Origin: Caldifarciminota bacterium | Lineage (GTDB): Bacteria > Hydrothermota > Tepidihabitantia > Tepidihabitantales > Tepidihabitantaceae | DNA length: 64,000 nucleotides | NCBI GenBank assembly: GCA_026418295.1 | Contig: JAOABP010000001.1 | Location: forward strand, 1-64,000 | Reading direction: 5' to 3' | Shown here: positions 44,245-54,224 of the stretch, one piece after another | How positions within the stretch are numbered: position 1 is the stretch's first letter | How the letters are laid out: each line of letters opens with the position of its first letter | Notes under the pieces: generated by a model | The model's database searches: none | The model's input: only the letters and a program-made list of their open reading frames with translations | What the model was told of the DNA's origin: nothing | Translations under genes and position numbers: made by a program

Positions 44245-47200
44245 ATGACGGGGTTTGATGGGCAGGAGAATATCAATGTTCTGCGGCAGCTCAACGAGCG
44301 CTATGAACCGTTAGAGCTGCTTGGAAAGAGTGAATTTAATGAGGTTTATAAAGTCAAGGACCGGCTGGGACGCCGGATTATTGCGTTAAAGGTTCTGCAG
44401 AAAAATGCGTCTCGAGAATCGGGACTGCGACTAAGTCGGGAATTTTTTTATCTTTCCCAGCTGGCGCATCCCAATATCGTCCGAGTGTTTGATTACGGCC
44501 TGACGATCGACAACTCCCCATTTTTCACCATGGAATTTGTTCCCGGGGTACCGATCACCCGTTTTTTCCGGGGTTACCAGCCGGCGCTGCTTGAGGTTCT
44601 GATTCAGCTGCTCTCTGCACTTGATGCAATTCATCGTGAAGGGCTGGTTCACTGTGATATTAAGCCCAATAATATTCTTGTTTTTGACAATGAAGGCAAA
44701 CCGGTAGTGAAACTGCTGGATCTGGGATTTATTGAAGATGTATCTTTTTCTTCTTCGCCCTCTCCTCGGGGCACGCTGGGCTACATTGCTCCGGAGCTGC
44801 TCAAGGGCGGAGAGGTGGACAGCCGGACCGATCTCTATTCTCTGGGGCTGGTTTTATATGAGGTACTGACCGGGATCGGACCGGCAAGCGGGGGTTCGCT
44901 GGAGGAATGGCTGAGACGGCAGTATTATTCCGGTTTTGAACCGGTTAGCAAATTCAACCCCGCAGTTCCGGCAGCGCTGGATAATCTGGTGCTGCGTCTG
45001 CTCAACCCGGATCCCAGGCGGCGGCCGGCAAATGCGGAGCGGGTGCTGGAAGAGTTTGTATCCGCAGGCCTGATTGTGCCAGAGTCACCCCGAATGCAGA
45101 CTGGTGTTGAGCCTTCAGTAATAAGGCGGGACTTGCTGGTACCGGCCTTTGTTGGCAGAGCTCCGCTGATTGCGCGTCTGAAGGAGCTGCTGGGAGAGGC
45201 TGCTGCCGGTAAACCCAGGGTAGTTTTTATTTCCGGGGAACGGGGTGCGGGCAAAAGCCGAATTTTGGGAGAGTTCAAGTTCCTTGCCCAGCTGGAGCAG
45301 GCAACGGTTATCGCTTTTGAACCGGTGGCACTGGGTGCCCGATCCCAGTCGCTGGTTGAAAGCCTGATTAACCTTCTCTGGCGAGGGGAGGAGGTAGAAA
45401 CAGATATTAGCCTGGAGTTTTTCCAGGAGTCCAAGTTTCAGCTGTTTGAACGGCTGGTCCGGCGATTGAGGGCGCTAGCCGATTCCCATCGGGTGCCCCA
45501 CAGTCTGGTACTGCTGGTAGATGATTTTGAACTCTTTGATCCGCTGAGTCTGGAGTTTGTGCGTTATCTGGCATTGAGCCTGGAACAGGAAAGACTGCTT
45601 CTGGTGATCACCGGACTAAGAGAAAAGCGGCTGCTGGATCTGGTCGGCGAACTGAGCGAAAGACCGTATTGTTATCACCTGGATGTGGATACTCTGGATC
45701 GCGAGGCGGTTCATGAGCTGGTAAGTTCAGTCGTAAGTGACGACGATAAAGTTGATGAGCTGGTTAACTGGGTTTATGAATTCGCTGGCGGTAATCCACT
45801 GGCAACGATCGAAGTGATTTACAGTATGATTGAGCAGGGGGTGATTTTCCGTGAGGGGCTGCACTGGCGGTATTCACCGGAGTCTTTAAGGAATTTTCCG
45901 ATTCCCAAGAATGTAGCGGATCTGGTGCGACACCGGCTTGAGGTGCTGACACCGGAAGAAAGGGAACTGCTGGAGGTTGGGGCAGTAACCGCAGGTCCGT
46001 TTACGATTGAATTTCTCCGGGCGGTGCTCAATTATCCGGACCGGACACTGTTTCAGGCGGTCAATCGGCTGAAGGGGCTCGGATTGCTCAGGACATTTTA
46101 TTCACGGGACAATGAGTCAGAAGAGGTTCGCGGAGCGCTGATTCTTTCCAGCAAAGTGCTTGAGACTGCGGTTACCGAGCGGATTCCACAGGAGCGCCGC
46201 CGGGAACTGCACCGCCGGGTGGCACTGGCACTGGAGCTGGTGCATACAGATAAAAAGGATAAAATTCTTTTTGACCTTGCGCATCAGTGGATTCAGAGCG
46301 GTGATCGCGAGCAGGCATATCGGTACGCCCTCGCAGCCGGTAAGAAGGCGCAGGAGTGGCTGCTGTTTGATGAAGCACGGCTTTTCTATGAAAGTGCGCT
46401 GAATCTTGCTTCCGATTTTGTCACTCCCGCTGAACGGTTTAATCTGATTGAGCGGGTCGGTGAACTCCGCGAGGCAACCGGCAGATATCACGAAGCGATT
46501 GACAGTTACCGGCAGGGAATGAGTCTGGCAGCCCAGTTTGCCGGTGAAAATCGTATGATTCTTGCCCGCTTTCTGCGCCGGCTCGGACTCGTGCATCAGA
46601 AACTGGGGGAACATCAGGAGGCGCTGCTCTTTTTAAATCAGGCGCTGGCACTTCTGGGAGAAAAGTCCGGTTTGGAATCGGCGCGGCTGCTTGCAGATCT
46701 GGGCTGGTCATATTGTGCTGCAGGCAAGGTGGAGCTGGCTGAGGATTATCTCGTCCGGGCGCTGCGGCAGTCAGAGCAGTTAAAACGGGAACATCCCAAG
46801 GAGGCTAATTACCTGAACGGCCTTGTGCTTTACTACTTTGCGGTGCTCGCCGGTGCAAGATCGGATTACATGCTGGCACTGCAGCTGGCAGAGCAGGCGC
46901 TGGATGTTTTCAAATCAGTTGATGAGCAGTTCATGGTTTCGGTCGTGATACAGTTTCTGGCAACGCTCTGTCTGCGCCGTGGTGATGCGCGTCGGGCAGG
47001 GGAATTCTACGAGGAGGCGGCACGGATTCAGCACCGGACCGGTAATGTATATTACCTGCTTAGCTCCAGTCATGGTTTGGGGGTGATCAGTTATGAGCAG
47101 GGAGAATTTGAGGGAGCGGAGCGGCATTTTAGTGAAGCGCTGCAGTACGCTGAACGTGTCAAAGATGCGGGTGCCGCCTTTAATCTCAATCTCCTGCTGG

Positions 47201-49482
47201 CTAATGTTTATTTTGACCAGGGGGAGTGGAGCCGGGCTGAGGTTTGCTGTCAGCGTGCGCTCAAACTCAGTCAGACAGCGGGAGATGGGGTTTCCGAACC
47301 GGGCCGGGCACAGCTGGCGGTCTATTCAGCCCGCCTCAGCTCAATCCGGGGTGACTTCCAGTCTGCTGAGCGGTATCTCGCCACAGCCCAGCGTTTAGCT
47401 GAAAATTCCCAAGACCCGGAACTTGAGTTTTTATTTTCCTATGTTCGCACAGAAATGGAGTTGCGCCGGGAAAGACTGGAGCTGAGCAAGGAATGGCTGA
47501 TCCGGACTATGCGGTCAGCATTGAAAGTGCGGGATTGGAGGCTCCGGTCGCTCGTGTGGCTGCTTGCCGGACAGTTCCGGCTGTCAACAGGTTCCCGGGC
47601 CGATTTTGAATCTCAGCAGGCGATTGCTGCTTTTCGAAGCCGTCCGGTATCACTGGAGTATGCTGGGGCACTCCGCCTGGCGGCACGGTGCGATGCCGCT
47701 GCCGGCAGAAAGGATCGGTCGCGCACGCAGTTTGAGGAAAGTATTAAAATCTTCCGGCAGTTCAATGCCAAGTATGAACTCGGACTTACGCTGCTCGCAA
47801 CTGCGGAACTGCTCTGCACTGATACCCTGTCCCTGCCGAAAAAGTTAAGAGGAATGCCGGCTGAACATTATGAATGGGTCCGAGCGAATCTGGAGGAGGC
47901 AATTTCCCTTTTCCGGCTGCTCGGGGCTCAGATTGAGCTTGAGCGCGCTGAGCAGACTCTGGCTTCGCTCGAGCAGATTTTCGGCGTGATCCAGCTGAAA
48001 GCGCGGCAGCGTAATGAGTATTTGAAGGTTTTCTATCAGTTAAGCGAACTGATGAATTCAGCTCTGGATCGGGATGATTTTCTTGACCTGGTACTGGAAC
48101 TGGTGCTTTCTGTGACCCGGGCAGAGCGGGGGATTATATTTTTCTTCCATCGGGACCGGCTGTCGCCGGTAGCGGTGCGGGATGTAGAAAATTCAACAGT
48201 TCTGGATGCCGAGGCAATTTCCCATTCAGTGCTGCGCAAGGTGCGGCGCCGCCGGGAGCCGCTGATCAGTGTTGACGCGCTGACTGATCCGCGGTTCAAT
48301 TCGGCAAACAGCGTTATTCTGAATAAAATCCGGTCCCTGCTCTGTGTACCGCTGGTAGTAGGCGAGCGGGTAATCGGCACGATTTACCTTGATTCCCGGT
48401 TGACTACACATCTTTTCACTGAGGAGGATCAGAATCTTCTCCAGTCAGTCGGGCATTTGATTGCCGCTACCATTGAACGTTCGCGGGTATATCGGCGATG
48501 GTATCAGGAGACAGTGCTTACCTACGATGACCTGCCGGTGGACCGGGCAACCGGTATTTTTCTTGGCAGATCGCCTGCCATCCGTCCGGTTCTCACTTTG
48601 ATCGATAAGATTGCTCCAACCGATTGCACTGTGCTGATTACTGGCGAAACCGGAACCGGAAAGGGGGCGCTGGCGCGGCTGATTCATTCCCGCAGTGGCA
48701 GAAAGGATAATAAATTTGTTGCGGTTGACTGCGGAACTCTGCCTGAGACACTGTTTGAGTCCGAGCTCTTTGGTCATATCCGGGGTGCATTTACCGGTGC
48801 GGTGCGGGACAAGATCGGCATCTTTGAGTCTGCCAATGGGGGCACAATATTTCTGGACGAAATTACTAATACTACGCCGGCAATTCAGGCAAAACTGCTG
48901 CAGGTGCTGGAGGATAAAATTATCCGCCGGCTCGGTGAAACGCAGACCCGGCTTGTTGACGTCCGGCTGATCTGTGCAACGAACAAAAATCTGATTAATG
49001 AGGTGAATGCCGGAAGATTCCGCCAGGACCTGTTTTACCGGATGAATGTGGTGACGATAAACGTGCCGCCACTCCGGGAAAGGGTTCAGGATATTATTCC
49101 ACTGGCAAATTATTTTCTGCGGATCTGTGCACAGCGGCTTAACAAGGAGATTAACGGATTTGAGCGGGATGTTGTCGAGGCATTTCTGCAATATTCTTGG
49201 CCCGGAAATGTCCGGGAACTTCAGAATACAATTGAGCGTGCAGTAATTATGACTCAGAACCTGCGGATAACGCTTGAAGATGTGGGGGAGACTTTCATCC
49301 ATCTTAAGTCCTCAGAGAACAGTGCACGGAGCGGACCGCTGACCAGGCACCAGCTGCTTCAGGCACTGGAACAGACTGGTGGAAATATCACGCGTGCTGC
49401 CCAGCTGCTTTGTATCACCAGACGGCACGCGCAGCGGTTGATCAAACGTTACCGGATTAAGCCCGAAGAGTTCGGGATCTAG
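44245..49482 (+). CDS. Ser/Thr kinase - AAA ATPase - TPR - GAF - sigma-54 activator - HTH protein
   Basis: 1745 residues, with domains in this order. (1) Protein kinase (~10-275): G-loop LLGKSEFNEVYKV (degenerate), Lys48 in IIALKVL, HCDIKPNNI near 136, DLG and APE near 181, so it is probably active. (2) AAA_16-type ATPase (~300-680): Walker A GERGAGKS near 330, Walker B LVLLVDDFE. (3) TPR superhelix (~700-1230). (4) GAF (~1272-1415). (5) Sigma-54 interaction AAA+ (~1438-1670): GETGTGKG, GAFTGA near 1514, GGTIFLDEI, arginine-finger region. (6) Fis-type helix-turn-helix (~1700-1745). It has everything needed to activate sigma-54 promoters, and one lies just downstream at 49639. Confidence 0.93.
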   Translation: MTGFDGQENINVLRQLNERYEPLELLGKSEFNEVYKVKDRLGRRIIALKVLQKNASRESGLRLSREFFYLSQLAHPNIVRVFDYGLTIDNSPFFTMEFVPGVPITRFFRGYQPALLEVLIQLLSALDAIHREGLVHCDIKPNNILVFDNEGKPVVKLLDLGFIEDVSFSSSPSPRGTLGYIAPELLKGGEVDSRTDLYSLGLVLYEVLTGIGPASGGSLEEWLRRQYYSGFEPVSKFNPAVPAALDNLVLRLLNPDPRRRPANAERVLEEFVSAGLIVPESPRMQTGVEPSVIRRDLLVPAFVGRAPLIARLKELLGEAAAGKPRVVFISGERGAGKSRILGEFKFLAQLEQATVIAFEPVALGARSQSLVESLINLLWRGEEVETDISLEFFQESKFQLFERLVRRLRALADSHRVPHSLVLLVDDFELFDPLSLEFVRYLALSLEQERLLLVITGLREKRLLDLVGELSERPYCYHLDVDTLDREAVHELVSSVVSDDDKVDELVNWVYEFAGGNPLATIEVIYSMIEQGVIFREGLHWRYSPESLRNFPIPKNVADLVRHRLEVLTPEERELLEVGAVTAGPFTIEFLRAVLNYPDRTLFQAVNRLKGLGLLRTFYSRDNESEEVRGALILSSKVLETAVTERIPQERRRELHRRVALALELVHTDKKDKILFDLAHQWIQSGDREQAYRYALAAGKKAQEWLLFDEARLFYESALNLASDFVTPAERFNLIERVGELREATGRYHEAIDSYRQGMSLAAQFAGENRMILARFLRRLGLVHQKLGEHQEALLFLNQALALLGEKSGLESARLLADLGWSYCAAGKVELAEDYLVRALRQSEQLKREHPKEANYLNGLVLYYFAVLAGARSDYMLALQLAEQALDVFKSVDEQFMVSVVIQFLATLCLRRGDARRAGEFYEEAARIQHRTGNVYYLLSSSHGLGVISYEQGEFEGAERHFSEALQYAERVKDAGAAFNLNLLLANVYFDQGEWSRAEVCCQRALKLSQTAGDGVSEPGRAQLAVYSARLSSIRGDFQSAERYLATAQRLAENSQDPELEFLFSYVRTEMELRRERLELSKEWLIRTMRSALKVRDWRLRSLVWLLAGQFRLSTGSRADFESQQAIAAFRSRPVSLEYAGALRLAARCDAAAGRKDRSRTQFEESIKIFRQFNAKYELGLTLLATAELLCTDTLSLPKKLRGMPAEHYEWVRANLEEAISLFRLLGAQIELERAEQTLASLEQIFGVIQLKARQRNEYLKVFYQLSELMNSALDRDDFLDLVLELVLSVTRAERGIIFFFHRDRLSPVAVRDVENSTVLDAEAISHSVLRKVRRRREPLISVDALTDPRFNSANSVILNKIRSLLCVPLVVGERVIGTIYLDSRLTTHLFTEEDQNLLQSVGHLIAATIERSRVYRRWYQETVLTYDDLPVDRATGIFLGRSPAIRPVLTLIDKIAPTDCTVLITGETGTGKGALARLIHSRSGRKDNKFVAVDCGTLPETLFESELFGHIRGAFTGAVRDKIGIFESANGGTIFLDEITNTTPAIQAKLLQVLEDKIIRRLGETQTRLVDVRLICATNKNLINEVNAGRFRQDLFYRMNVVTINVPPLRERVQDIIPLANYFLRICAQRLNKEINGFERDVVEAFLQYSWPGNVRELQNTIERAVIMTQNLRITLEDVGETFIHLKSSENSARSGPLTRHQLLQALEQTGGNITRAAQLLCITRRHAQRLIKRYRIKPEEFGI

Positions 49483-49570
49483 TCGCATTTCCCGAGTTTT
49501 ACAAGTTACAATTTTTTAAATAGTTAGATAAAAAACCAAAGCATAGTGCGACATTTGCATATTTACAGCT

Positions 49571-49638: not shown

Positions 49639-49654
49639 TGGCATTATAATTGCT
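49639..49654 (+). promoter_or_regulatory. Sigma-54 (-24/-12) promoter
   Basis: TGGCAT, 5 bases, TTGCT: the GG and GC pairs have exactly the spacing of the consensus TGGCAC-N5-TTGCW, with one change in the conserved hexamer (C to T). Expected transcription start near 49665. It lies 157 bases after a sigma-54 activator gene. Confidence 0.75.
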
Positions 49655-49710
49655 TTTTATTATTATGATGATGGCAGAAATCAGGAAGCTCTAAAAATAA
49701 AGGAGGCAAA

Positions 49711-49770
49711 ATGGACGGTCCGATTATCCCGATTCTTCCACCGCCGAGGCCGGCGCCACCGATGGATTAG
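49711..49770 (+). CDS. Micro-ORF for a 19-residue proline-rich peptide
   Basis: Encodes MDGPIIPILPPPRPAPPMD: eight prolines, no Cys, no signal peptide. A perfect AAGGAGG ribosome site lies just upstream of the ATG, the strongest in this part of the window. A sigma-54 promoter is 72 bases upstream and a terminator begins 21 bases after the stop, so a ~150-base transcript carries only this frame. The unit may act as a peptide, as a translated small RNA, or (given PPP) as a ribosome-stalling sensor. No homologue is known to me. Confidence 0.6.
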   Translation: MDGPIIPILPPPRPAPPMD

Positions 49771-49790
49771 GCACGGCAGAAAAGCAGTGA

Positions 49791-49818
49791 CCCGCCCGAC
49801 TCAGTCGGGCGGGTTTTT
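49791..49818 (+). terminator. Terminator of the micro-ORF transcript
   Basis: Ten-base-pair stem CCCGCCCGAC / GTCGGGCGGG with loop TCA and five T (49814-49818). It also lies between convergent genes and could act in both directions. Confidence 0.92.
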
Positions 49819-49820
49819 AA

Positions 49821-50783
49821 TTATTCCCGGTGTATGGTGAAAAAGGTTTTGCCCTTGAATTTAAATTTTCTGACCGCGCCTTCGGTCGTCAGATGTTCGA
49901 GGGTCTGGGCTACAGTTTCTGCCGGCAGTCCGAGTGCCTGAGCAAGGTCGGTGCCGGTTACCGGTCGGTTGGCAACGACCGCCAGAATCGCCTGTTTCGG
50001 GTTGCCCCGGAATTGTTGCTGGTGTTTTCTCAGTGATGACGGGATGATATCGGTTTGCGGACCAAAGAGCATCTGGAGCTGGAGTAGGTGGTCATAAGGA
50101 ACGGGAAGCGCAGATGGTTCAGCAGGTGGCCGGACAACGGTATTAAGGTGCACCCGGTCAGGCTGGATGTGATGAACGATCCGGCGCAGACGGAAAAGAT
50201 GCTCAGGGTGGTCATTGAAGTCTTTGACGAGCATAACTTCAAGCCAGAGGCTGCCATGATAGCGGTGCCGGAAGGTTTTGAGTCCCCGGATGATGTTTTT
50301 GAGCCGGATCTTCGGGTGGGGACGGTGGACCCGGCGGAAGGTTTTTTCGTCAGCACAGGCAAGGGTGGGGATGACAAGGTCTGCCTGATAGAGCGCCTCC
50401 CGGACAACCGGACTGGAAATGAGAGAGCTGTTGGTAATTACTGCCACCGGGATCTGAAAGCGTTTTTTCAGGATGGAAATGAGTTTGCCAATGTCCCGGT
50501 TCAGTGTGGGTTCACCGCTGCCTGATAGTGTCAGATAGTCAACTTTGCTCTTCATTAACGCCGAATTCACTGCGGTAATAATCTTTTCTACCGGGAAGAA
50601 CGATTTGCGGAAAGCAGTGAGGCAAGTGGTTCTGCCACACTGGCAGTATACGCAGTTGAAGGTGCAGGTTTTGGGTGTGAGAAGGTTGATGCCCAGCGAA
50701 AGTCCAAGTCGACGCGAAGGGACCGGTCCATAGACGAGCGCCGGCTCTGTTTTTCTCGAACGAATTTCCGGTTGGGTAGACAT
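49821..50783 (-). CDS. Radical SAM protein of the COG0731 type
   Basis: 320 residues. YGPVPSRRLGLSLGINLLTPKTCTFNCVYCQCG contains the CxxxCxxC cluster for the iron-sulfur centre that binds SAM; then LTLSGSGEPTLNRDIGKLI. The PSRRLG..SLGIN...TC opening marks the COG0731 group, whose function is unknown. The C-terminal ~70 residues (PKQAILAVVANRPVTGTDLAQALGLPAETVAQTLEHLTTEGAVRKFKFKG) form an added winged-helix domain. No SPASM domain. The ATG at 50783 follows GGAGG; the longer frame has no support. Confidence 0.85.
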   Translation of the reverse strand: MSTQPEIRSRKTEPALVYGPVPSRRLGLSLGINLLTPKTCTFNCVYCQCGRTTCLTAFRKSFFPVEKIITAVNSALMKSKVDYLTLSGSGEPTLNRDIGKLISILKKRFQIPVAVITNSSLISSPVVREALYQADLVIPTLACADEKTFRRVHRPHPKIRLKNIIRGLKTFRHRYHGSLWLEVMLVKDFNDHPEHLFRLRRIVHHIQPDRVHLNTVVRPPAEPSALPVPYDHLLQLQMLFGPQTDIIPSSLRKHQQQFRGNPKQAILAVVANRPVTGTDLAQALGLPAETVAQTLEHLTTEGAVRKFKFKGKTFFTIHRE

Positions 50784-50813
50784 TTCACCTCCGGAGATTA
50801 ACAAGCACCATAA

Positions 50814-53800
50814 TTATAATTTGATAATTTTGAGGTGGGTGTGTGCCGGGGGAATAACCGCGTGATCCGGTTCAGAATTATAATTCATGCGAAGAAAATA
50901 GATGCCTGCAGGCACCGCGCGGTTATTGTCATCGGTGCCATCCCAGCCGACTGAATGCCAGCCTGCAGGAATGTTACCGGAAATCAGCGTACGCACTCTG
51001 CCGCCCGCGGTGTTGAAAATGGCAAGATCGATCCGGGTAGCACGGCTGAGGGTAAGGAAGATGGTTGTACGATTGCGGAAGGGGCAGGGAAAGAGGGTGA
51101 AAAGCCGGGTGCTTTCCGGAATGGTCGAGGGCGGAAAATCAGCAGATGCTACTGAGATGTCATCCAGAAAGAATCCGGCAGCAGATTGGGGGTCCGGATC
51201 CGAAACGAAGGCGAATTTCAGTTGCGCCGTTTCCCCCGGGGCAGAAGCAGAGAGTTCATATGAATAATTGAACCATCGGTTCCCCGGGTCCCAAGTTTGA
51301 GCTTCAGACTGATTCCCAGGGCGGAGCGCACCACCAGCACCAATAAAGTCCAGGGTTTCTTCCTGGCCAGCATGGCGGATGATGCAGTATAGTCCGTCGC
51401 TACCATAAAGAGGAAGCTCATAATAACAGCTGAATTTCAATCTTGGGCAGGGGGGGATTGGAAATTTGGGAGAAAGAAGTTCGCAGGTGCAATTGGGTGG
51501 GTAGGAGTCGGCCGGATAGCCGGCGTGAATTGAATAAGGGGGCGAGAGAGCTTGAGTGCGGGTCAGAAACCAGGAGCCGTTGGCACCAGCAGCAGTCCAG
51601 TTGCCCAAGCCGGAGTCAAAGCTGGCATAAATGCCTGCCGGTGGCAGATGGACTTTAAGGGTATCGCTGAAAATGAATCTGCCGGTGATCAGATTCAGAC
51701 CAATCCTTACAGGTCCGGATTCAGCGTTAAACCGGGCAGGTACCGAGGACCACAGAGTTTCACCTGGCAGGATACTGGGGAAGACGATACCCGGAGTGAG
51801 TAATGTCAACGGTTGAGTTAGGTCCGGATTGAACAGAGTGCCGGTTGGAACGGGCGCTGGTGCTGCGCCGGTGTTGACCACCCTGAAAAATGCTGAATAC
51901 GAGCCTAAAGTATCGGAACAAACATAGTAAGTGACAAATTTTAGGAACGGCTGGCGGAACTGAATGATAACCGGAAACTGCGAGAATCTGCCGTTGAGTT
52001 CAGTAATGGTCAGAGTGCAGAGCGCGTAGTCCCGGTTCTGAGCGTGGTTGGATGTACGAATAAGAAAGAGTCGCGCGCACACCGACGAGTCCGGAGGCAG
52101 AATTGATATATGACCGGCATCCTGTTCAACCGTGAGCAGGGGAGAGTCGGTAGTGAGCCGGCAGAGTACATTATATAGGGGCAGAGGGGAGTTGTTTTTC
52201 AGCCACAGCCGGATGGCGAAGGTTTCTCCGGCTGAGATACAGCCGTTACCGTCACCAGCGGAGTCGATAAAGGTGTAATTAAGGAGCACAATGCTGTGTT
52301 CGGAGGCGACAACGACTGAATCGTACAAAGGGCGGTGATTTTGAGCTGTGACGGTCAGCCGGGCGGTCCCCACCTGTGTGAATGCGGTTTGAATCGCAGC
52401 AGTTCCATCGGTTCCGGTAGTTCCAGTGTAAACTGAAGCGCTGCCTTGATAAATCGCAACGGTGGCATCGGGGACGGGGCCATTACGGTCAAGGACAATG
52501 AAAAGGGCAATGTCACTGCCAGTTCTAATTCTGAGCGGTTTGCTGACCATGAGTTGACTGAGGGTGTCAGTGTGTACCGGCATTGCCGGATCCCCGAGCA
52601 GGTTAAGTGCAAACTGATGCCAGCGGTAGACATTAGGGGAGTAGCTGTAGGGAATGAAATGGGTTTTTGTACGGGCAAAGACTTCCCCGAGCCGGGGAGC
52701 CGGGTCGGAAAACAGCTCCTGAAAGAAGCGAGAATCAAAACGATCAGAGTAGCCGAAGCCGGGGTTGCCGGGTGCACCCCAGCCATATGATGAGTTGCCG
52801 ATGAATGCTACCGCACCGCCGGCAGGGTTGAGAAGAAAATGCTCGGCAACGCAGTCAAAGTCAAAGGCAGTCGTCCAGCAGCCGATTGAATAAACGATGC
52901 CCGTTCGGGTGTTGTTAGTCAAATGGTCAATATCAGGGTTGCGCAGAACGCACTGACGACTGACAGCGATAGCGTTGATCCAGCCGTGACCGCAATGGTT
53001 GAAAATTCCGAATCCGGAGTTGAGCAGTGATGTTACGGTATCAGTGGTTACCGGCATCATTGACTCATACAGGGTCTGTATCTGAAAATCTGATGGAAAG
53101 TGCTCCCGGCGGATGCGTTCCTTGACGAGCATTTCATCGGTCCAGGGGTTTTCCCAGAGAATCGCACCGGCGAGTACGGCGCGCCGCTGATAATCATTCA
53201 GCAGGGTGCGTTCATAGGCGAGGATTTTGTTTACAAAGATACGGGCGGCTGCCGGTGTGCTGACCGGCGCCCTGCCGACATAGATTTCCGGAAAGAGATC
53301 GACCTCGTCATCCGGCTCTCCGAAGATACCATTATTGTTACCATCCCAATTGCCATCCAGTGCTGAGAAGTACAGATCGCAGGGCAGAGAGTCTTCGCGG
53401 GGATGAAGTCCGGCACCACTGACCAGAGCGATGGCTTTACGAAACGGCAGAATGTCTGTGTCGCCGCCCAGCAGTAAGTACTTCAGTCCGGAGTCACGGG
53501 CACACTGCTGAAGGTAGGCACGCAGTTTTTCGGCATCGTCCCGGCCCGGGTATCGGTTTTCTATCCATTCAATATGCCTAATTTGTGCCGGAGTGCCGGT
53601 CAGGGTCCGCCAATAGCACAGGTCCTGAAATACGGAGTCCAGATTTTCCCGAGTAACAATCAGATATTCAAAGCGGCAGCTGTCATGACCAGCAACAGGG
53701 AGGGATGGTTGTAACCCTTCTGATTCTCTCAGTTTAAAAGCAATTTGCAGCCGGCGCAGCCGGCGAATTTTGTGAGTTACCGGCTGATACTGAAGTGGAG

Positions 53801-54224
53801 TAATGACAAGGGAGGCAAGTTTCTGCCCGCAACGGTACCCATATCCGGTGACCATACAGAGTGTTTCCGGGTAGAACGAGGACAAACGGGTAATTTCCGG
53901 TTTGAGGTCCAGTGATGATGGCGGCGATGACAGTGAAAGGGGGACAGGCGGCTGGGTAGTTGCCAGCTGGTAGTTTCCGGGCAGGGTTTCGAATTCGGCC
54001 TTCAGAATCAGCAGTTGGTCAATCACGGTGCCCGATGGCAGGGGAATGATCCGGCTCATTTCCGGCAGCAGGGGGGTTCCCGGGGGTGAGTTGAACTCAC
54101 CATCATTGATGGTAAAAATGGTCGTACTGTGGCTGGAGATTGTCTGAAAGTCGTTGCAGTTAAATTCCAAGTTCAGGGTGCAGAGTGAGGGATACATCAA
54201 GATGATAATGGGTAAAATCAGCAT
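50814..54224 (-). CDS. C25 (gingipain-like) cysteine peptidase with sorting domain
   Basis: 1136 residues. N-terminal signal-like segment (MLILPIIILMYPSLCTL). Propeptide-like region (~30-180), then the C25 peptidase domain (~185-570): YLIVTRENLDSVFQDLCYWRTLTG, KYLLLGGDTDILPFR, and the putative catalytic His413 in NHCGHG and Cys449 in YSIGCWTTAFD. Ig-like and carbohydrate-binding-like domains follow, then a FlgD/Por-type tail (TLFPCPFRNRTTIFLTLSRATRIDLAIFNTAGGRVRTL...GIYFLRMNY). In Bacteroidetes such enzymes are exported by T9SS. It follows cca by 19 bases. Confidence 0.87.
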   Translation of the reverse strand: MLILPIIILMYPSLCTLNLEFNCNDFQTISSHSTTIFTINDGEFNSPPGTPLLPEMSRIIPLPSGTVIDQLLILKAEFETLPGNYQLATTQPPVPLSLSSPPSSLDLKPEITRLSSFYPETLCMVTGYGYRCGQKLASLVITPLQYQPVTHKIRRLRRLQIAFKLRESEGLQPSLPVAGHDSCRFEYLIVTRENLDSVFQDLCYWRTLTGTPAQIRHIEWIENRYPGRDDAEKLRAYLQQCARDSGLKYLLLGGDTDILPFRKAIALVSGAGLHPREDSLPCDLYFSALDGNWDGNNNGIFGEPDDEVDLFPEIYVGRAPVSTPAAARIFVNKILAYERTLLNDYQRRAVLAGAILWENPWTDEMLVKERIRREHFPSDFQIQTLYESMMPVTTDTVTSLLNSGFGIFNHCGHGWINAIAVSRQCVLRNPDIDHLTNNTRTGIVYSIGCWTTAFDFDCVAEHFLLNPAGGAVAFIGNSSYGWGAPGNPGFGYSDRFDSRFFQELFSDPAPRLGEVFARTKTHFIPYSYSPNVYRWHQFALNLLGDPAMPVHTDTLSQLMVSKPLRIRTGSDIALFIVLDRNGPVPDATVAIYQGSASVYTGTTGTDGTAAIQTAFTQVGTARLTVTAQNHRPLYDSVVVASEHSIVLLNYTFIDSAGDGNGCISAGETFAIRLWLKNNSPLPLYNVLCRLTTDSPLLTVEQDAGHISILPPDSSVCARLFLIRTSNHAQNRDYALCTLTITELNGRFSQFPVIIQFRQPFLKFVTYYVCSDTLGSYSAFFRVVNTGAAPAPVPTGTLFNPDLTQPLTLLTPGIVFPSILPGETLWSSVPARFNAESGPVRIGLNLITGRFIFSDTLKVHLPPAGIYASFDSGLGNWTAAGANGSWFLTRTQALSPPYSIHAGYPADSYPPNCTCELLSPKFPIPPCPRLKFSCYYELPLYGSDGLYCIIRHAGQEETLDFIGAGGALRPGNQSEAQTWDPGNRWFNYSYELSASAPGETAQLKFAFVSDPDPQSAAGFFLDDISVASADFPPSTIPESTRLFTLFPCPFRNRTTIFLTLSRATRIDLAIFNTAGGRVRTLISGNIPAGWHSVGWDGTDDNNRAVPAGIYFLRMNYNSEPDHAVIPPAHTHLKIIKL

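Follow-up and report, generated by a model that had tools for sequence, protein, structure and literature searches.

A proline-rich micropeptide gene paired with a giant sigma-54 activator in candidate division WOR-3: a possible self-encoded signal

In a candidate division WOR-3 bacterium, a gene for a 19-residue proline-rich peptide, provided with its own promoter and translation signals and under coding constraint, lies directly behind the gene of a giant sigma-54 activator. The recurrence of this regulator-peptide pair across WOR-3, in some relatives with the peptide core in tandem copies, suggests an undescribed peptide-signal circuit. It is quite possible, if short of probable, that the peptide is a self-made signal or ligand for the TPR superhelix of the activator, through which it would tune its own expression. 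If so, the pair offers a testable communication or feedback system for uncultured bacteria, in which one kind of peptide core exists without a leader, within a precursor or as tandem repeats. Should the peptide be an output instead of a ligand, it would still constitute an undescribed small-protein family with a defined regulator and promoter, which lend themselves to transfer into a laboratory host. Within the open-access literature, to which our searches were confined, no account of such a circuit turned up.

Locus, promoter and activator

The window, i.e. the whole stretch of DNA analyzed, comprises 64,000 nucleotides of a genome which encodes RpoN. Direct reading showed that every detail given by the initial annotation for 49639-49818 is correct: the promoter, the 46-base leader (if the transcript starts near 49665), the AAGGAGG, the 19-codon frame and the terminator (Table 1). 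A gap of 157 bases separates the activator stop codon from TGGCAT, and terminator hairpins occupy the equivalent position in relatives. It was also rightly stated that the plus strand carries no other gene before the convergent radical-SAM gene, as nothing plausible besides the micro-ORF was found between this gene and the activator. The transcription unit indeed contains a single gene. The “one-gene regulon” put forward on this basis applies at most to this activator, as further convincing sigma-54 promoters are present in the genome and paralogous activators elsewhere drive HD-GYP, radical-SAM or secreted-protein genes.

Hydropathy reveals no signal peptide in MDGPIIPILPPPRPAPPMD. A longer micro-ORF with a hidden leader was rejected, the upstream in-frame sequence meeting a stop without any start. 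Modification of the peptide by the convergent radical-SAM enzyme was likewise discarded, its gene being on the opposite strand and similar downstream sequence being seen by eye in the nearest genera only.

Table 1. Features of the locus, with their positions in the window
Feature	Position	Strand	Remarks
Activator gene	44245..49482	+	1745 aa; TAG stop 49480-49482
GTCGCA, putative activator half-site	49482..49487	.	overlaps activator stop codon; binding predicted from sequence
GTGCGACA, putative activator binding site (UAS)	49546..49553	.	near-invariant in family alignment; binding predicted from sequence
Sigma-54 -24/-12 promoter	49639..49654	+	TGGCAT 49639-49644, N5, TTGCT 49650-49654; conserved in orthologues; rpoN in genome
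Shine-Dalgarno AAGGAGG	49700..49706	+	read directly
Micro-ORF MDGPIIPILPPPRPAPPMD	49711..49770	+	19 aa; ATG at 49711, last base of stop codon 49770; synonymous bias in orthologue pairs
Intrinsic terminator	49790..49818	+	GC-rich hairpin 49790-49814, then T tract
Radical-SAM gene, convergent	49821-50804	-	
C25 (gingipain-like) peptidase gene, large	50814-54224	-	FlgD-Ig tail; adjoins radical-SAM gene

According to Pfam, the activator combines a Ser/Thr kinase domain (residues 20-267), an AAA_16/STAND-like ATPase (302-454), a TPR region (about 548-1262), a GAF domain (1275-1410), a sigma-54 AAA+ domain (1440-1605) and a Fis-type HTH_8 at the C-terminus. AlphaFold2 modeling of residues 548-1262 from an alignment of 35 sequences gave, with good confidence (pLDDT 88.4), a TPR superhelix made up almost entirely of helices. 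Its neighbors in the PDB include LGN in complex with NuMA, Inscuteable and Frmpd4, APPBP2 with a degron, and the STAND-TPR structure 6mfv; such matches of the model are generic, and would permit peptide binding without demonstrating it. Homologues of the activator are present across the phylum, and a single contig scan returned WOR-3 sequences and distant matches only. One homologue from outside the phylum, in Gemmatimonadetes (L079), has no proline-rich ORF downstream.

Two putative activator sites, GTCGCA and GTGCGACA, had escaped the initial annotation. The GTCGCA half-site is found at the equivalent position in L006, L014-L016 and L052, and is not kept as such in L002. More generally, TGCGACA/TGTCGCA sites recur between regulator and promoter in the order of the window, with 24 sites of the TGCGACA type in 16 order-level loci versus 0.8 expected, a ratio which is descriptive since the motif was chosen from the same loci. 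Within the window, the sites do not form perfect palindromes, being single or partial. Other clades display different and often perfect palindromes in that position, such as GTGTAAAG-TTT-CTTTACAC, ATGTGTCA-TTT-TGACACAT, AGTGTGCA-GATTT-TGCACACT and GTGTAACA-TTT-TGTTACAC. The recognition helix of the activator is THRRQLQRLIKRY in the family of the window and ITRRHAQRLIKRY in its genus, and becomes SRPTLYKKLKKY, GRTSIYRYMEMY or PRRTLYSFLKKY in other clades. As judged by sequence reading, the DNA sites change between clades together with the helix, from which we strongly infer binding of the regulator to these sites and activation of the promoter next to it. The adjacent activator is therefore likely to be the regulator of the peptide gene. 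A correctly spaced and conserved -24/-12 element, rpoN, an activator with a sigma-54 AAA+ domain and, at the sequence level, activator-specific upstream sites are all found together.

The peptide family across WOR-3

Homologous regulators were collected in 100 relatives at first and later in 147 genomes of the phylum, and the DNA downstream of them was read. A short proline-rich ORF lies downstream of activator orthologues or paralogues in 43 of 60 usable loci (our own tally from the listings, with fragments, masked stretches and contig ends left out), versus 0 of 19 controls, which were sigma-54 activators belonging to other types; one further control, L118, has a peptide and was not counted, its short contig cutting off the N-terminus of the activator. 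Some paralogous activators have no adjacent peptide, which is thus not required for this activator type in general.

Such frames are hardly expected by chance. Among 9400 dinucleotide shuffles of the 700-bp downstream stretches, none yielded a Shine-Dalgarno-preceded frame with at least 8 prolines in its last 20 residues, the number found in the window, and 0.05% reached 6. In a six-genome alignment, the conserved columns correspond to the promoter, the Shine-Dalgarno, the start codon and the CCN codons, in which CC is invariant at codon positions 1-2 and third positions are free. Amino-acid conservation stood out from a random-placement null for L001-L022 (p 0.009), L001-L005 (p 0.003), L004-L005 (p 0.003) and L014-L016 (p 0.002); some sequences enter into more than one of these pairs, which are thus not independent, and most of the sufficiently diverged pairs were positive. 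No codon bias was detected between L001 and L002 (p 0.69), which differ by four changes only, nor between L010 and L011 (p 0.55), in which six residues changed. The checks in related genomes suggested with the initial annotation (short frames downstream of orthologues, third-position bias, a conserved -24/-12 element) were positive, and the proposal that a micro-ORF is translated from behind a sigma-54 promoter, most probably controlled by the activator next to it, is supported. As read from these data, the product of the locus is a peptide and not a small RNA or a stalling leader.

The peptide occurs in three forms. Leaderless 16-21-mers characterize the family and order of the window (e.g. 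MDGPIIPILPPPLPAPPMN, MDAPIVPILPPPRPAPPVK, MDGPFAPIYPPPIPAPPTA, MDGYPIPPKPGPLPDPPSQG and MFGVFVPPPPLPCPPK). Precursors of about 45-80 aa have a hydrophobic N-terminus and a proline-rich C-terminus (e.g. ...AVAYADSDTVRSPFPPPPPPPPID). Tandem-repeat precursors contain a unit similar to the window peptide in 2-4 copies: four VDGIPHPPKPVPPTQ-like units in L012, four EDGGTFPPTPGPNGDGM-like units in L008, two GIPIDMPGSPRPPW units without leader in L085 and two GGIPQPPPSGR units in L139, the repeat forms reaching lengths of 105 and 127 aa. In size, one such unit roughly equals the entire window peptide, and a DG...P...PP layout is common to this peptide and the units of L012 and L085. In L052, two separate micro-ORFs each have their own Shine-Dalgarno. 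N-terminal hydrophobic segments are present in precursors and in none of the leaderless forms; they were called from hydropathy alone, and are referred to here as signal-peptide-like. The longer forms have no match in Pfam, apart from a sub-threshold one, or in NCBIfam, the 19-mer being too short for such searches.

In a tree of 46 regulators, peptide-bearing loci occur to either side of the midpoint root, indicating that the peptide pairing is either old or recurrent. Leaderless forms group in the order of the window and in one distant row, and the repeat precursors L008 and L012 fall inside this order, showing that leader status shifted on more than one occasion; other outputs are scattered over the tree.

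Several neighborhoods in relatives and elsewhere in the genome are also worth recording. In classes f6 and f9, a 64-aa Sm/Hfq-like ORF (HLYEVKMLDGTRYKGEI...), whose match to Hfq_1 is weak and sub-threshold, follows or flanks the peptide gene, sometimes in several copies (L026, L027, L039, L041, L048, L050, L054, L135, L136, L139, L141 and L142), and is adjoined by GAF/HD-GYP or kinase genes. In family f8 (L031, L032, L057 and the L034 region), the peptide gene precedes a different conserved ORF, some 97 aa long (SNVIIEFGSNMLVLNHPDVRGLHVK...) and without Pfam match. The peptide of L054 (G057), ending in PTPPPPID, has an LSFDDLLGGG leader which resembles a double-glycine leader and takes the place of the signal peptide. 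By eye, a paralogous regulator in L045 precedes a SPASM-type radical-SAM-like gene behind TGTTTCA-AAA-TGAAACA palindromes and a sigma-54-like site, and an HD-GYP-like gene replaces the peptide behind palindromes and a sigma-54-like site in L028, L042 and L046. Outside the window, L090 (G000:C8:388115) combines a sigma-54-like promoter, GAGACA/TGTCTC repeats and a 67-aa ORF, and L098 (G000:C8:345185) a sigma-54-like promoter and a 52-aa ORF running into a terminator-like hairpin; both are candidates for further small-protein units.

Possible roles of the peptide

The giant upstream activator most likely switches on the micropeptide gene through its own DNA sites and the sigma-54 promoter. If the peptide is a self-encoded ligand, it or its mature core would be sensed by this activator, the long TPR superhelix being the most plausible place, and would tune its own expression, with the kinase and GAF domains contributing other inputs. 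Where relatives make precursors, the core would exert its effect extracellularly or once exported. In the leaderless clade of the window, it would be an intracellular feedback ligand in the producer or would use an unknown transporter. No match to SBP_bac_5 (OppA-type) was detected in the genome of the window (G000, assembly 96.7% complete) or in any listed genome of its family, which makes classical re-import unlikely there and leads us to favor intracellular feedback or a non-Opp route. Such matches were found in 72 of the 147 WOR-3 genomes, among which are the f6/f9 genomes and none of families f1-f5 and f8; some precursor-bearing clades likewise lack them.

We count in favor of the ligand the pairing with the activator relative to the controls, the coding constraint, the tandem cores, the N-terminal hydrophobic segments, the clade-matched sites and recognition helices, the confident TPR model and its peptide-binding TPR fold matches, as well as the Firmicutes precedents for tandem pheromone precursors (PMC11343458) and leaderless peptides (PMC10518010). 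A signal peptide was one of the options offered by the initial annotation, and the comparative tests it called for turned out positive. Counting against the ligand, TPR domains have a wide range of binding partners. We looked for co-diversification between TPR and peptide and rejected it, domain-wise identities of closely related activators showing no consistent excess divergence of the TPR region. A broader proposal, which we advance with some doubt, is that of a phylum-wide, undescribed peptide signaling outside Firmicutes, evolved independently of RRNPP, in which giant kinase-STAND-TPR-GAF-sigma54 receptors would each have their own proline-rich pheromone gene in leaderless, precursor or tandem-repeat form.

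The main and real rival is that the activator senses something else via its kinase, STAND/TPR or GAF domains, the peptide being an output: an effector with a short linear motif whose partner is another protein, in some clades perhaps the 64-aa Sm/Hfq-like one encoded next to it, or an envelope protein. We regard this as quite possible, though somewhat less so than the ligand. Polyproline is a typical protein-binding motif, paralogous activators drive clear outputs (HD-GYP, SPASM radical SAM, secreted proteins), and in classes f6/f9 the Sm/Hfq-like ORF and GAF or HD-GYP genes come after the peptide; against this, the peptide is the sole gene of a unit ending at a terminator in the order of the window, is closely paired with one activator type, and its tandem core repeats are typical of signal precursors.

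Other explanations account less well for the data. A secreted antimicrobial or toxin-like peptide appears improbable: proline-rich antimicrobial peptides, which ours superficially resembles in being short, proline-rich and often endowed with a signal-peptide-like N-terminus, are strongly cationic, whereas the net charge of the short forms is -1 to +1, the window's clade is leaderless and the unit lacks an immunity gene. The stalling element dependent on EF-P, suggested by the initial annotation, would report EF-P or proline supply, ribosomes stalling on PPP when EF-P is short; despite the PPP of the peptide and the EF-P encoded by the genome, we consider it very unlikely, given that several orthologues have no PPP (MDGYPIPPKPGPLPDPPSQG, MNDSFPILPQPGPIAPPLGI) and that the transcript contains no downstream gene to control. 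A small RNA was likewise among the options raised at the outset; as a regulatory RNA with an incidental frame it is the least credible reading, in spite of the short transcript and strong terminator, because conservation follows codons, orthologues keep the Shine-Dalgarno, precursor forms exist elsewhere and Rfam gives sub-threshold matches only, no family reaching its cut-off.

Comparison with known systems

With NtrC/NifA/NorR-type regulators the activator shares the GAF, AAA+ and Fis HTH core, the -24/-12 promoter and the upstream sites, but it has an additional kinase-AAA-TPR part of about 1250 residues and a micropeptide as target. It also resembles STAND/MalT-like TPR ATPases in its ATPase plus TPR sensor architecture, with 6mfv among the fold matches. 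Known members of this group sense small molecules or proteins, and we know of none that is accompanied by a peptide gene of its own or has a sigma-54 activator as its terminal part.

TPR-regulator peptide-receptor pairs have been described in Firmicutes and their phages; these RRNPP pairs comprise Rap-Phr, PlcR-PapR, NprR-NprX, Rgg-SHP and AimR-AimP, and the family imports its peptides by the oligopeptide permease. As in RRNPP, a short peptide gene directly adjoins a TPR regulator, and the precursors of relatives have a signal-peptide-like N-terminus and a C-terminal core; tandem copies of the pheromone core are known in RRNPP precursors of Firmicutes (PMC11343458). The criteria listed for RRNPP include an adjacent propeptide of 10-100 aa, a receptor of 250-500 aa with TPR, an HTH_3/Xre-type domain where present and a peptide secretion signal (PMC10075063). 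The adjacent propeptide falls within this range and the regulator has a TPR domain, whereas the activator is 1745 aa long, its HTH is of the Fis-type HTH_8, the window peptide is leaderless, hydropathy indicating a signal-like N-terminus in relatives, and the SBP_bac_5 search gave no importer match in the window's genome. The locus was not filed as RRNPP because receptor size, HTH type, leader and importer all depart from that family. It further differs by the kinase, STAND-like ATPase, GAF, sigma-54 AAA+ and Fis HTH domains, by the sigma-54 promoter and by its occurrence in WOR-3 rather than Firmicutes, peptide sensing being here a prediction.

Leaderless communication peptides of the SIP/RopB class, mostly of 8-10 aa, provide a precedent in Firmicutes for a very short ORF without signal sequence, with a good Shine-Dalgarno and adjoining a putative receptor gene (PMC10518010). 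Theirs are aromatic/aliphatic, whereas ours are proline-rich, of 16-21 aa (19 aa in the window), and belong to another receptor class, the domain make-up of the regulator not being that of RopB. By analogy, the WOR-3 system may work like RRNPP without being a member of it and, if this is true, its pairing of sigma-54 activator and peptide would add a second lineage of TPR peptide circuits.
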